In this document: one piece after another, positions 4,021 to 7,413 of the stretch
How positions within the stretch are numbered: position 1 is the first letter of the stretch
How the letters are laid out: each line of letters begins with the position of its first letter
Assembly: GCF_000018405.1 (NCBI RefSeq)
Contig: NC_009943.1
Location: 2,359,001-2,423,000, forward strand
Source: Desulfosudis oleivorans Hxd3
GTDB taxonomy: Bacteria > Desulfobacterota > Desulfobacteria > Desulfobacterales > Desulfosudaceae
Direction of reading: 5' to 3'
DNA length: 64,000 bases
Position numbers and translations under genes: made by a program
The notes under the pieces: generated by a model
Told to the model about the DNA's origin: nothing
What the model saw: only the letters and a program-made list of their open reading frames with translations
Databases searched by the model: none

Positions 4021-4066
4021 TTTAAAAACAAAAAAGCCGCGGGCTTTTTCGTCTGCCCGCGGCTTT
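4021..4066 (-). terminator. Attenuator (3:4) terminator of the aromatic operon
   Basis: On the minus strand an uninterrupted 12-bp GC-rich stem (arms 4055-4066 and 4033-4044, AAAGCCGCGGGC with its exact complement) encloses a 10-nt loop. It is followed by TTTTTTGTTTTTAAA. It stands between the leader peptide stop (4094) and the AroA' start (3972), where read-through or termination would decide operon expression. It could only secondarily serve the helicase gene ending at 4496, because a promoter lies between them. Confidence 0.88.
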
Positions 4067-4153
4067 AAGTTGCTGGTTTTGGGTATTAAGGGTTCAGCAC
4101 ACCACAGGCAGGCCGGTATAAAAATACCAGAAGTAAAAATAAAATCTGCCTGT
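4053..4153 (-). promoter_or_regulatory. Alternative 1:2 and 2:3 leader RNA helices (protector and antiterminator)
   Basis: Segment 1 (4146-4153, RNA ACAGGCAG) is exactly complementary to part of segment 2 (4101-4111, RNA CUGCCUGUGGU). Segment 2 can instead pair over 11 consecutive positions, three of them G:U, with segment 3 (4053-4063, RNA GCCGCGGGCAG). Segment 3 is the ascending arm of the terminator. The aromatic codon run (4118-4144) lies between segments 1 and 2, and segment 2 overlaps the last leader codons just before the stop. A ribosome stalled on the aromatic codons would mask segment 1 and allow 2:3 antitermination. One that reaches the stop would cover segment 2 and allow termination. 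Pairings are read directly; the mechanism is inferred from classical attenuators. Confidence 0.85.
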
Positions 4154-4171
4154 ACCGTTGGTTGCCGTCAT
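4094..4171 (-). CDS. Aromatic amino acid leader peptide (25 aa, FYFYFWYFY run)
   Basis: The reading frame from the ATG at 4171 to the TGA at 4094 encodes 25 residues beginning MTATNGTGR. It continues with nine consecutive aromatic residues FYFYFWYFY (residues 10-18: four Phe, four Tyr, one Trp) and ends TGLPVVC. An in-frame TAA two codons before the ATG rules out a longer upstream start. The Shine-Dalgarno signal is weak. The position downstream of a good promoter and upstream of mutually exclusive hairpins identifies it as a sensor leader peptide rather than a functional protein. Sensing of all three aromatic amino acids by one leader fits the general aromatic operon downstream. Confidence 0.9.
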
Positions 4172-4217
4172 GTCTTAATTATCTGCTTTCGCTTAAAACT
4201 CACTCTATTTGAAAACT

Positions 4218-4246
4218 GAATTACTCCCGGCAAAAACAAATGTCAA
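4218..4246 (-). promoter_or_regulatory. Sigma-70-type promoter of the aromatic operon leader
   Basis: Reading the minus strand, a consensus TTGACA (4246-4241) is followed by a 17-nt spacer and TAATTC (4223-4218). Transcription would start near 4211, about 40 nt before the leader ATG at 4171. The exact -35, ideal spacing and location make this a strong prediction. Confidence 0.82.
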
Positions 4247-4495: not shown

Positions 4496-7375
4496 TTACC
4501 AGTCTACAGGCAGGCGAACCTGCTGTTTGGCCTTGTTGCGAAACAGCAGGTAGCCGTTGATTTTGCCGTAAAGGTAGAGGTCTTTTGTGATCTGAACATC
4601 CTTTTTGCAATACTCAACGATCTTGTCGATCTCTCCCTGCTGCCACCAGATCAGTGCCTGCAGCCCGTTGGCGCTTTTTTTCGCGCCCAGGGTGATCTCT
4701 GCCAATGAATCGAGGGAAAGCCGGTAGCCCAGGGTCTTGTGCACCTCCTCTAAAATATCCAGGGTGGGTAGCCGGGAAAGATCGGCGTCGCTGTAGCCCG
4801 CCAGGACCTGGTTGTCAAACCGCTTGTTGTTAAACCCCACCACCAGATCAAAATCAGAAAGCCGGCGAATAAACGCCGCCACCTGGTTTTCCAGGAATGC
4901 GTCATAGGTATCCGTGGCCGAATCGTACAGCACCACGCAGCTGATGCCCATGCGGTCGGCCCGGTGCCAGCCGCCCACCTCTGCGGCAGAACGCTGGGTC
5001 TCGATATCGAACACGCCGAACCGAACATCTCCGGTGCGAACCGGCGGCGGTATGGTGCGGGCCGGTTGCAAAACCGGGGCCGCGGCCCGTCGTGTCCGGC
5101 TCCGGGCACCGGCTGCCGGTGGCCGGGCCATCTGTTCCAGCAGGTAAAGGGCGCAGGCTTTGTCAATGGGCCGGTTGCCGGAGCCGCACTTGGGCGAATG
5201 AACACAGGCGGGGCACCCGGTCTTGCAGGGACACTGGGAAATCAGGTTGCGGGTAAAGCCGAGAATCTCTGCCACCTTTTCATAGGCCTGGCGGCTAAGG
5301 CCGATACCCCCGGCCACGGCATCGTAGATAAAGATGACCGGGGTGCCGACCTGGGGATGAAAGGTCATGGAGATGCCGCCCAGGTCGTTTCTGTCGCACA
5401 TCACAAAGATGGGCAGCACGCCGATGACGGCATGCTCAATGGCGTGAATCCCGCCCATGAAGTGCCGGTATTCACTCTCTGCCGCGTCCTGAATACGGTC
5501 GGGAATGGCCAGCCACACCCCTTGCGTTTCAAACACAAGGGGCGGCAGGTCCAGCGGTTCCACGGACACGCGCCGCTTTCCGTACAGCCGCCATTTCTCA
5601 TACCCGGTGATGGTTTCTGTCACGCGAAGGCGGCCCGTGCACACCGTGATGCCGGCCACCTGTTTTGTCTGAAAGGTTTCCAGAATCTCGGTGTCCTTGG
5701 TGGACCGGGGCTTGGTGTAGTAATTGACCGGCTGCCGGGACACAATCACGCGCATGGCACCGACATCCAGATTTTTTACCACGTGGGTCTGGCCCATGTG
5801 CAGATAAACCGCGCCGGGATGGGCGTCCCTGAACACCCGCATGCCGTCGATGTCGCCGATGTGGTCCCCGGTCTGGTCGCAGATCACCTTGAAGCTACGG
5901 CCCGCGCCCCGCAGGTCGACCTCCCGGTGAGGCCGCTTTCGCGACGCAAACAGGTACATCCCGTCGGCGCTGCGCAACAGCTCCCCTTTTTTCTCCAGCG
6001 TCGCGACGGCCCGCTGCATGGCCGCCCCCTGCAGAAAAGGCTCATCCACGCGCAACCGGTGTTCGGCGGCGGCGCATACCAGGTGCTTTTCAACAATGGC
6101 CGGGTTGTCCGGGTTAATCACCGCCGCCTCCGGGGGCAGGCTCAGAAAGGCCCCGGGATTGCGCATAAAATACTGGTCCAGGGCGTCTTCCCCGGCAATC
6201 AGGATCATGGCCGACTCCTGGCCGGCCCGCCCCACCCTGCCCCCGCGTTGCCATGTAGCCATGACTGACCCCGGATACCCCACCAGCAGGCAGAGGTCCA
6301 GGTCTCCGATATCGATGCCCAGTTCCAGGGCGCTGGTGGATATCACGGCCAGCAGTTCGCCGGCGGAAAGCTTTCGCTCGATCTCCCGGCGCTCGTCCGG
6401 CAGAAACCCGGCCCGGTAGGAGCTGATTTGATGGGCATGGGGGCTTTTCTTTTCCGCCCAGATGGATATCAGCTCGGCCAGCTTCCGGGACTGGGTGTAG
6501 ACAATGGTGCGAAGCCCCCGGTACAGGGCGGCCCGAAGCAGTTGAATGGTGGTGGCCACCGGACCGGTTACCGGATTCATGAACACCACGTGACGTTTTC
6601 CCCTGGGGGCCCCGCTTTTTGTGACCGCCGTTGTCGGCCGGCCGGTGAGCTGGCCGGCCAGCTCTTCCGGGTTGGCAATGGTGGCCGACCCGGCCACGAA
6701 CAGGGGGGCGGCGCCGTGGTGGGTGCAGACACGATAGAGACGGCGGAACACGTGGGCCATGTGAGACCCCATCACGCCCCGGTAGGTGTGAATCTCGTCA
6801 ATGACCACAAAGGCAAGATTGGCAAAAAAAGTATGCCAGGTCTCATGATAGGGCAGCAGCCCCAGGTGCAGCATGTCCGGATTGGTCATCAGCACCGAGG
6901 GCGGGTTGTCTCTGATTTTTTTCCGGTGCCAGGCCGTGGTGTCACCGTCGTAGATGGCCGCGGACACGGCCTCCGCCATGCCCGCGGCGCCGGCGGTTTC
7001 CTGCAGTGCCCGCAACTGGTCCCTGGCCAGGGCCTTGAGCGGATAGAGATAAAGGGCCCGGGCCGACGGATTTTCCTTCAGCCGCTGGAGCACGGGAATA
7101 TTATAGATCAGGGTCTTGCCGCTGGCCGTGGGCGTGGCCGCCACCACGTTCTCTCCTGACAACACCCGGCCAATGGCATCGGCCTGGTGGGCATACAGCC
7201 CTTCCGTGGCCAGTATGGCGGAAAGACAGGCCGCCTCAGGCACTCCCCAATCCGGCTTTCTAACCATCCGGGCCGGCACCGGATCCAGCGCGGTGTGGTA
7301 AACCACCTCGCCGGCCATTCGCGGTGAAGCTACAAGAGACTGAATATATTCACTTATGGTTCCGTTTCTATCCAT
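4496..7375 (-). CDS. DEAD/DEAH-box DNA helicase with DUF1998 and C-terminal RNase H-like exonuclease (MrfA-MrfB-like fusion)
   Basis: It is a superfamily 2 helicase of about 960 residues. Visible motifs are Walker A ATPTASGKT (about 81-89), the DEIH box (about 194-197), GSATIANPEEL, and motif VI with QRGGRVGRAGQ. A four-cysteine cluster CPCKTGCPACVHSPKCG (about 717-733) marks the DUF1998 zinc region of the MrfA/YprA/Hrq1 group. From about residue 788 a YprB-like 3'-5' exonuclease follows. It has FDIET, FNNKRFD and YCKKDVQIT motifs, so its acidic catalytic residues are intact. In Bacillus subtilis MrfA and MrfB are separate proteins acting in mitomycin-adduct repair; here they appear as one chain. 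Start is the ATG at 7375 or the in-frame GTG at 7381; neither has a strong ribosome site. Confidence 0.88.
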   Translation of the reverse strand: MDRNGTISEYIQSLVASPRMAGEVVYHTALDPVPARMVRKPDWGVPEAACLSAILATEGLYAHQADAIGRVLSGENVVAATPTASGKTLIYNIPVLQRLKENPSARALYLYPLKALARDQLRALQETAGAAGMAEAVSAAIYDGDTTAWHRKKIRDNPPSVLMTNPDMLHLGLLPYHETWHTFFANLAFVVIDEIHTYRGVMGSHMAHVFRRLYRVCTHHGAAPLFVAGSATIANPEELAGQLTGRPTTAVTKSGAPRGKRHVVFMNPVTGPVATTIQLLRAALYRGLRTIVYTQSRKLAELISIWAEKKSPHAHQISSYRAGFLPDERREIERKLSAGELLAVISTSALELGIDIGDLDLCLLVGYPGSVMATWQRGGRVGRAGQESAMILIAGEDALDQYFMRNPGAFLSLPPEAAVINPDNPAIVEKHLVCAAAEHRLRVDEPFLQGAAMQRAVATLEKKGELLRSADGMYLFASRKRPHREVDLRGAGRSFKVICDQTGDHIGDIDGMRVFRDAHPGAVYLHMGQTHVVKNLDVGAMRVIVSRQPVNYYTKPRSTKDTEILETFQTKQVAGITVCTGRLRVTETITGYEKWRLYGKRRVSVEPLDLPPLVFETQGVWLAIPDRIQDAAESEYRHFMGGIHAIEHAVIGVLPIFVMCDRNDLGGISMTFHPQVGTPVIFIYDAVAGGIGLSRQAYEKVAEILGFTRNLISQCPCKTGCPACVHSPKCGSGNRPIDKACALYLLEQMARPPAAGARSRTRRAAAPVLQPARTIPPPVRTGDVRFGVFDIETQRSAAEVGGWHRADRMGISCVVLYDSATDTYDAFLENQVAAFIRRLSDFDLVVGFNNKRFDNQVLAGYSDADLSRLPTLDILEEVHKTLGYRLSLDSLAEITLGAKKSANGLQALIWWQQGEIDKIVEYCKKDVQITKDLYLYGKINGYLLFRNKAKQQVRLPVDW

Positions 7376-7413
7376 GGGCACCCGACTGGCAGCGGCAAAA
7401 AACCTCTTTCACT

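Follow-up and report, generated by a model that had tools for sequence, protein, structure and literature searches.

A predicted ribosome-mediated attenuator with a mixed Phe, Tyr and Trp leader upstream of the aroA'-aroB' operon of Desulfosudis oleivorans Hxd3, and related leaders in the Desulfobacterota

Genes and features at the aroA' locus

We analysed a stretch of 64,000 nt of the Desulfosudis oleivorans Hxd3 genome (NC_009943.1, positions 2,359,001 to 2,423,000; hereafter the window, in whose numbering positions are given), in which an operon for aromatic amino acid biosynthesis is preceded by a short leader open reading frame (ORF) and a set of competing RNA helices. Together these very probably constitute a ribosome-mediated transcription attenuator, predicted to sense charged Phe-tRNA and Tyr-tRNA, and here Trp-tRNA as well, and to control aroA'-aroB'-pheA-aroA-aroK-aroC-tyrA. 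The features concerned are as follows.

4246-4241, minus strand: −35 box TTGACA of the putative leader promoter, an exact match, also exact in 67 of 73 homologous leaders
4225-4220, minus strand: candidate −10 box AGTAAT, spacing 15 nt (as also seen in relatives), poor match
4223-4218, minus strand: candidate −10 box TAATTC, spacing 17 nt, poor match
4171-4094 (stop included), minus strand: leader peptide ORF, 25 codons
4154-4146, minus strand: segment 1, TACAGGCAG, partner of segment 2
4144-4118, minus strand: control codons 10-18, FYFYFWYFY
4111-4101, minus strand: segment 2, CTGCCTGTGGT, partner of segment 1 or 3, overlapping leader codons 21-24 just 5' of the stop
4066-4055, minus strand: segment 3, AAAGCCGCGGGC, continued by AG for helix 2:3; 5' arm of the terminator
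4044-4033, minus strand: segment 4, GCCCGCGGCTTT; 3' arm of the terminator
4035-4024, minus strand: U tract TTTTTTGTTTTT, read directly from the sequence
4019-4012, minus strand: decayed remnant of segment 5, CCCGCGGG, without U tract; counterpart of the 5' arm of a second terminator in relatives
3972-3160, minus strand: aroA', 2-amino-3,7-dideoxy-D-threo-hept-6-ulosonate (ADTH) synthase (TIGR01949, 367 bits, above the cut-off)
3157-2150, minus strand: aroB', 3-dehydroquinate synthase II (NF002627, 519 bits)
2175-1036, minus strand: pheA, chorismate mutase/prephenate dehydratase with ACT domain (hidden Markov model search)
1022-1, extending beyond the window, minus strand: aroA, 5-enolpyruvylshikimate-3-phosphate synthase (hidden Markov model search)

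The operon continues beyond the window with an aroK-like kinase gene, aroC and tyrA (locus L084, hidden Markov model searches), giving the order stated above. Its content covers the common pathway and the Phe and Tyr branches, and a leader rich in Phe and Tyr codons is therefore apt, while Trp depends on the operon through chorismate. The TIGR01949 and NF002627 matches bear out the AroA'/AroB' assignment made in the original prediction, and no AroFGH-type 3-deoxy-D-arabino-heptulosonate 7-phosphate (DAHP) synthase was found in the source genome.

Codons 10 to 18 of the leader read F Y F Y F W Y F Y, i.e. four Phe, four Tyr and a single Trp (TGG, codon 15), and direct reading and translation confirm the nine consecutive aromatic codons in a 25-codon leader that had been described before. 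This is the only run of at least six consecutive aromatic residues in all six frames of the window, and nine aromatic residues out of nine did not occur once in 1000 dinucleotide shuffles of the 450-nt upstream region.

Competing helices in the window copy

Four RNA segments can pair in three alternative ways. Helix 1:2 (TACAGGCAG/CTGCCTGTG) has 9 pairs, where 8 had been counted originally, and folds at −23.9 kcal/mol. Helix 2:3 (CTGCCTGTGGT/GCCGCGGGCAG) indeed runs over 11 consecutive pairs, three of them G.U, with the stretch from segment 2 to segment 3 folding at −23.5 kcal/mol, and hairpin 3:4 (AAAGCCGCGGGC, a 10-nt loop and GCCCGCGGCTTT) has the 12-bp stem that was claimed for it (−23.8 kcal/mol), followed by the U tract TTTTTTGTTTTT. 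These folding energies, which were proposed as a check at the time, make the three alternative hairpins nearly equal. The antiterminator 2:3 and the terminator 3:4 are mutually exclusive, and segment 2, which overlaps the codons near the stop as originally stated, would lie under a ribosome at the stop codon; this arrangement, downstream of a short leader ORF with control codons for products of the pathway, is that of the attenuator class. The 134-nt element folds 5.5 standard deviations below its shuffles, and a slightly longer piece gives a z-score of −4.5. All parts of a ribosome-mediated attenuator placed on the minus strand by the original prediction are thus present and beyond chance, by shuffles and by folding. 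With segment 5 reduced to CCCGCGGG and no second U tract, the window copy has the four segments of a trp-type attenuator.

A pair of alternative terminator and antiterminator helices does not by itself reveal the kind of sensor, and the 2:3/3:4 switch could also be driven by a metabolite-binding riboswitch, a T-box or an RNA-binding protein. We consider this very improbable: at the gathering threshold no Rfam family was found in the window (T-box, Phe_leader, Trp_leader and His_leader included), the weak matches in the relatives tested are not credible (His_leader at 25.1 bits against a gathering threshold of 49, Phe_leader at 29.9 against 55 and on the wrong strand), no conserved aptamer was seen between promoter and leader, and the conserved part is the reading frame, in which the identity of the aromatic residues changes with the downstream gene.

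Conservation of leader and helices in the Desulfobacterales

The scan for relatives covered 80 named aroA' loci of the order, of which 77 have enough upstream sequence; the other three, on contigs L047, L055 and L062, have less than 200 nt upstream and no leader, and are left out of the helix counts together with the leaderless loci L053 and L061. Close relatives of the source genome in this set are named Desulfosudis or Desulfococcus, and the set also includes Desulfonema magnum and Desulfobotulus. An aromatic-rich leader was found upstream of aroA' in 75 of the 77 testable loci, and at least seven aromatic residues per nine were present in 69/76 loci with a candidate leader (window included), compared with 0/380 shuffles. 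Phe and Tyr codons are present in all 75 leaders and Trp codons in 51, with AGG, CGG or GGG found in several relatives at the place where others have TGG; since Trp codons are not universal, Phe and Tyr would be the core signals. In 59/71 leaders the final aromatic codon lies exactly 12 nt 5' of the CUGCC of segment 2, a spacing that we take to be how far the leading edge of a ribosome lies from its A site. The window leader is an exception with a distance of 9 nt, hence stalling at its last two or three codons may be too far downstream.

The duplexes 1:2, 2:3, 3:4, 4:5 and 5:6 formed within each locus (segments 5 and 6 being a second hairpin found in relatives, see below) beat 500 of 500 permutations of arms between loci, whereas the control pairings 2:5 and 1:3 did not beat them all. 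Direct pairing of segment 2 with segment 5 was considered and rejected, as it is no better than in swapped or shuffled sequences. In an alignment of 57 sequences, where kinship inflates the pairing and covariation counts, 90.4% of cells in 1:2 and 3:4 jointly are paired and there are 67 double changes (0/500 shuffles; slid controls 32-56%), while 2:3 is 87% paired and its 7-bp core 96% (slid controls 34-47%). Conservation of the codon run and helices ahead of AroA'/AroB' operons, another check that had been proposed and whose failure would have refuted the original prediction, is therefore borne out in 75/77 loci and by compensatory changes. An aroA' gene of desulfobacterial type with a divergent aromatic leader was also seen on a contig binned as Candidatus Falkowbacteria (L039), which is probably a binning error.

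A gene for a DEAH helicase ends 325 bases upstream of the leader on the same strand, and the aromatic run is T-rich, so the hairpins might be constitutive terminators of the helicase gene and the ORF a chance reading. We give this next to no credence and reject it on conservation, covariation and shuffles: the leader and helices 1:2 and 2:3 are kept in 75/77 loci, the distance from codons to segment 2 is fixed at 12 nt in most leaders, a plain terminator gives no role to 2:3 and 4:5, and matches across the phylum precede aromatic genes. The helicase itself (4496-7381, minus strand) is TIGR03817-like, scoring below the cut-off, and judged by eye its C-terminal part resembles a fused RNase H-like exonuclease.

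The C-terminal tail of the leader peptide, TGLPxV(R/C), is conserved within the order, which might point to a peptide (or a terminated small RNA) acting in trans besides or instead of attenuation, as with Sinorhizobium peTrpL, a known precedent for such a second role (PMC7298713). This is improbable, as the tail differs outside the order and is encoded by segment 2, so that RNA pairing already explains its conservation.

Predicted mechanism and the question of Trp

In the attenuation reading, a ribosome translates the leader behind the transcribing RNA polymerase. With aromatic tRNAs charged, the ribosome would reach the stop codon and cover segment 2, 3:4 would form and transcription would end near 4025; with any aromatic tRNA short, the ribosome would stall in the aromatic run and leave segment 2 free, allowing 2:3 to form before segment 4 is made and the polymerase to enter the operon. 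This was modelled by masking the ribosome footprint on each aromatic codon, with RNA ending before segment 4, a calculation that describes equilibrium and not kinetics. Mean 2:3 pairing was then about 8.9 bp overall, compared with 0.2 bp for a ribosome placed on the stop codon. What was computed directly, namely the parts with their conservation and covariation, the codon spacing that fits the footprint and the codon content that matches gene function, supports the ribosome-mediated attenuation that was first proposed for this locus; transcription start and termination, ribosome stalling and the magnitude of the response are inferred.

Several observations weigh against this reading. A generic σ70 scan called no promoter ahead of the window leader, where the −10 box is weak, and the earlier term 'consensus promoter', which is right for the exact and conserved TTGACA, was thus overstated. 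There is also no clear Shine-Dalgarno sequence at the window leader, while 52/73 leaders of the set have one. Ribosome-free equilibrium folding gives 7.5 bp of 2:3 on average, and 9.6 bp in the window; as 2:3 is still allowed without a ribosome, termination without translation would depend on kinetics, with 1:2 forming first. Finally, the aroR leader upstream of aroF (DAHP synthase) in Corynebacterium glutamicum carries Phe-Tyr-Phe but its response is to Phe and not to Tyr (PMC11802643), hence mixed codons do not guarantee mixed sensing.

This last point bears on a narrower alternative, namely a functional leader that in effect responds to just one or two amino acids, for instance Phe and Tyr, with the single Trp codon being incidental. 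Besides the aroR precedent, the restricted presence of Trp codons and their replacement elsewhere by Arg or Gly codons one base away speak for it, as does a separate sensor for Trp in the same genome: trpE (C1:1867128-1868498, minus strand) has the leader MSTFVKANQGNWWWWVWSVRSAHGA upstream, which is Trp-only (...NWWWWVW...). Conversely, all 50 Trp codons measured in the order lie 17-36 nt 5' of segment 2, where stalling frees segment 2, the 2:3 pairing in masked folding is no lower at Trp codons (9.3 bp) than at Phe or Tyr codons (8.9 and 8.8 bp), and Trp is present in 24/31 leaders of one DAHP synthase type. We therefore rate a leader that disregards Trp as a real possibility, albeit the less probable one, and retain the prediction that all three tRNAs are sensed in the window copy.

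A second, probably coupled terminator in related loci

Most close relatives have two hairpins 3' of the leader, and the 3' arm of the first can pair with the 5' arm of the second (4:5). In locus L019, for example, the first hairpin is AAAAGCCGUGGGC-AGACAAAAA-GCCCACGGCUUUU and the second is AAAAGGCCGUGGAG-AAUAAA-CUUCACGGCCUUUU. Among 49 sequences, 4:5 is 97.9% paired (0/500 shuffles; slid controls 39-64%), and 3:4 with 5:6 is 97.7% paired with 59 double changes. A U tract follows each of the two hairpins in 71 loci, of which 46 belong to the order set, while the first hairpin lacks one in 8 loci, some of which are borderline. The six-segment plan, with 5:6 and with 4:5 coupled to 2:3, is absent from the window copy but present in about 50 close relatives and in the trpE leader of D. 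oleivorans itself, which is followed by two terminators with complementary inner arms, GCCTGCGG and CCGCAGGC. As an independent copy, the trpE leader shows that this genome does contain the two-terminator plan and has a dedicated sensor for Trp. Neither the coupled second terminator of the relatives nor this Trp-only leader was part of the original prediction.

If tandem hairpins were born by duplication, their like arms would yield 4:5 complementarity anyway, which counts against a selected coupling. However, one base of segment 5 tracks segment 4 (G-C in 39 loci and A-U in 7, with three exceptions; Fisher p 3e-6). The segment-6 partner of this base nevertheless stays U in 45/49, which leaves a persistent G.U in 5:6; in L033, L046 and L173 it is 4:5 that is maintained at the cost of a G.U in 3:4. 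This asymmetric pattern suggests that several lineages retain 4:5 for a function of its own, which argues for selection. Folding gave 11.8 bp of 4:5 with segment 3 occupied and 3.9 bp with segment 3 free.

Covariation in the relatives therefore supports a six-segment chain of alternative helices, in which 2:3 would free segment 4, segment 4 would pair with segment 5, and terminator 5:6 would be disarmed as well. Both terminators of these relatives are predicted to switch together, and the window retains only the first. We predict lower basal read-through as the effect of the double terminator, an arrangement that offers an idea for tighter attenuator control and for how his-type leaders may arise from trp-type ones.

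Distribution across the phylum

A covariance model of the leader and first terminator (R1), with E-values that are rough, matched 152 of 395 genomes of the phylum at E ≤0.001, and its specificity was judged from the genes downstream of the matches. In the source genome it gave one strong match (109 bits), followed by one of 28 bits; a 25-bit match at C1:1868617, just 5' of trpE, is the Trp leader. No such leader was found upstream of leuA and hisD in this genome, and no aromatic leader was found at the aroA' paralogues L002 and L003.

Of 110 inspected matches, down to about 40 bits and including that of the window, 102 precede aromatic-pathway or putative uptake genes, encoding DAHP synthase (two kinds), AroA', AroK or AroC, AroB', TrpE, indolepyruvate oxidoreductase, aminotransferase, ADP-forming CoA synthetase or a Peripla_BP_6 substrate-binding protein. 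Codon content tracks the role of the gene: leaders of the common pathway have Phe, Tyr and often Trp codons, those before the transporter almost only Phe, those before trpE and iorA Trp, and those before the aminotransferase Phe and Tyr. Many aroA' genes of genomes missed or weakly scored by R1 also have an aromatic leader (e.g. families f17, f50 and f60), while none was found for those of family f38.

With regard to genes with less clear roles, nine loci (L111, L113, L117, L147, L166, L171, L190, L194 and L195) have a Phe-rich leader with terminators of this style before the gene for the Peripla_BP_6 substrate-binding protein, which suggests a Phe-responsive ABC transporter, perhaps for Phe or aromatics. 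Tyr/Phe leaders, one of them with a run of eight Tyr residues, precede the gene for an ADP-forming acetate-CoA ligase alpha subunit at L131 and L134, where the enzyme perhaps activates aryl acids for the synthesis of aromatic amino acids from them, and a WWWW leader precedes an indolepyruvate ferredoxin oxidoreductase alpha gene at L191, hinting at a use of this enzyme in Trp synthesis or salvage. Codon content would thus predict roles for the ABC transporter (Phe-rich), for the aminotransferase and ADP-forming CoA synthetase (Tyr/Phe) and for the indolepyruvate oxidoreductase (Trp). Two complete attenuators with leaders SSYYFGFFYFFAGRGLPMG and EYGYFYFFTGRGPPVG, each with one terminator, lie in tandem before a short ORF at L138:1-520, and a single genome (G371; loci L155 and L098) has separate aromatic leaders before aroB' and before a gene for an AroG-type DAHP synthase.

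Taken together, one mixed-codon leader type would govern entry into aromatic biosynthesis across the phylum, whichever the first enzyme (AroA', two DAHP synthases or AroK). On balance we favour, with appreciable reserve, a phylum-wide aromatic attenuator family of the Desulfobacterota, not in Rfam, with two serial terminators coupled by the helix chain (2:3 freeing segment 4, and 4:5 disarming 5:6); one stalled ribosome would switch off both, a completed leader would arm both and thereby multiply the on/off ratio, and lineages would have shifted among one-terminator, two-terminator and his-like forms.

Comparison with known attenuators

The trpL leader (RF00513) has the same four-segment logic as the window leader, and its counterpart in D. 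oleivorans is the trpE leader; the window leader differs in its mixed codons and other targets, and has no Rfam match. Similarly, the pheL/pheA and pheM/pheST leaders of Escherichia coli (Phe_leader, RF01859) share attenuation that senses Phe-tRNA, and pheA is a gene of the present operon, but they contain Phe codons only, belong to the Gammaproteobacteria and have no Rfam match on the right strand here.

The his operon leader of enterobacteria (RF00514) is alike in stalling on a codon run and in having an extra hairpin between pause hairpin and terminator, which has been explained as lowering basal read-through (PMC1183508). A middle hairpin without U tract, as in the his leader, is also found in L165, L217, L219 and L222 (one family) and in L079. 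The aromatic leaders otherwise differ in their codons and have no sequence relation to the his leader, and the window copy has four segments only. The his chain A:B/B:C/C:D/D:E/E:F can be equated with 1:2/2:3/3:4/4:5/5:6 of the aromatic leaders, although in most close relatives the terminator is not the last hairpin alone, the middle hairpin being itself a terminator.

The C. glutamicum aroR leader also contains Phe and Tyr codons and precedes the first aromatic gene, but it has three aromatic residues with no Trp reported, responds to Phe only and is from the Actinobacteria. Another precedent is a predicted attenuator before aroA'-aroB'-aroQ/pheA-aroF-tyrA-trp of Desulfovibrio vulgaris, listed in 2005 (PMC1173090, Table 7), which concerns the same pathway genes in related bacteria and probably belongs to the same regulatory family as the window element; the listing is a database entry from a terminator/antiterminator screen and mentions no leader peptide, codon content or second terminator. 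In the light of these two precedents and of the 51/75 leaders with Trp, the original view that mixed sensing by one leader is unlike the single-residue pheL and trpL leaders needs qualifying: mixed codons have been described before, and Trp is not a constant part of the mixture.

Amino acid attenuators are known mainly from the Gammaproteobacteria, where their motifs 'may have originated' according to a survey of RNA regulons (PMC3766115), and aromatic leaders and Desulfo- species are both absent from the main text of a survey of premature terminators (PMC2965389). Descriptions of this family beyond the precedents named here were not found in the open-licence literature, and it seems absent from Rfam. 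The mixed-codon leader is a well-supported and apparently new member of a known mechanism class, found across a different phylum that was not known for such attenuators. The double coupled terminator of the relatives would be a new form within this class.
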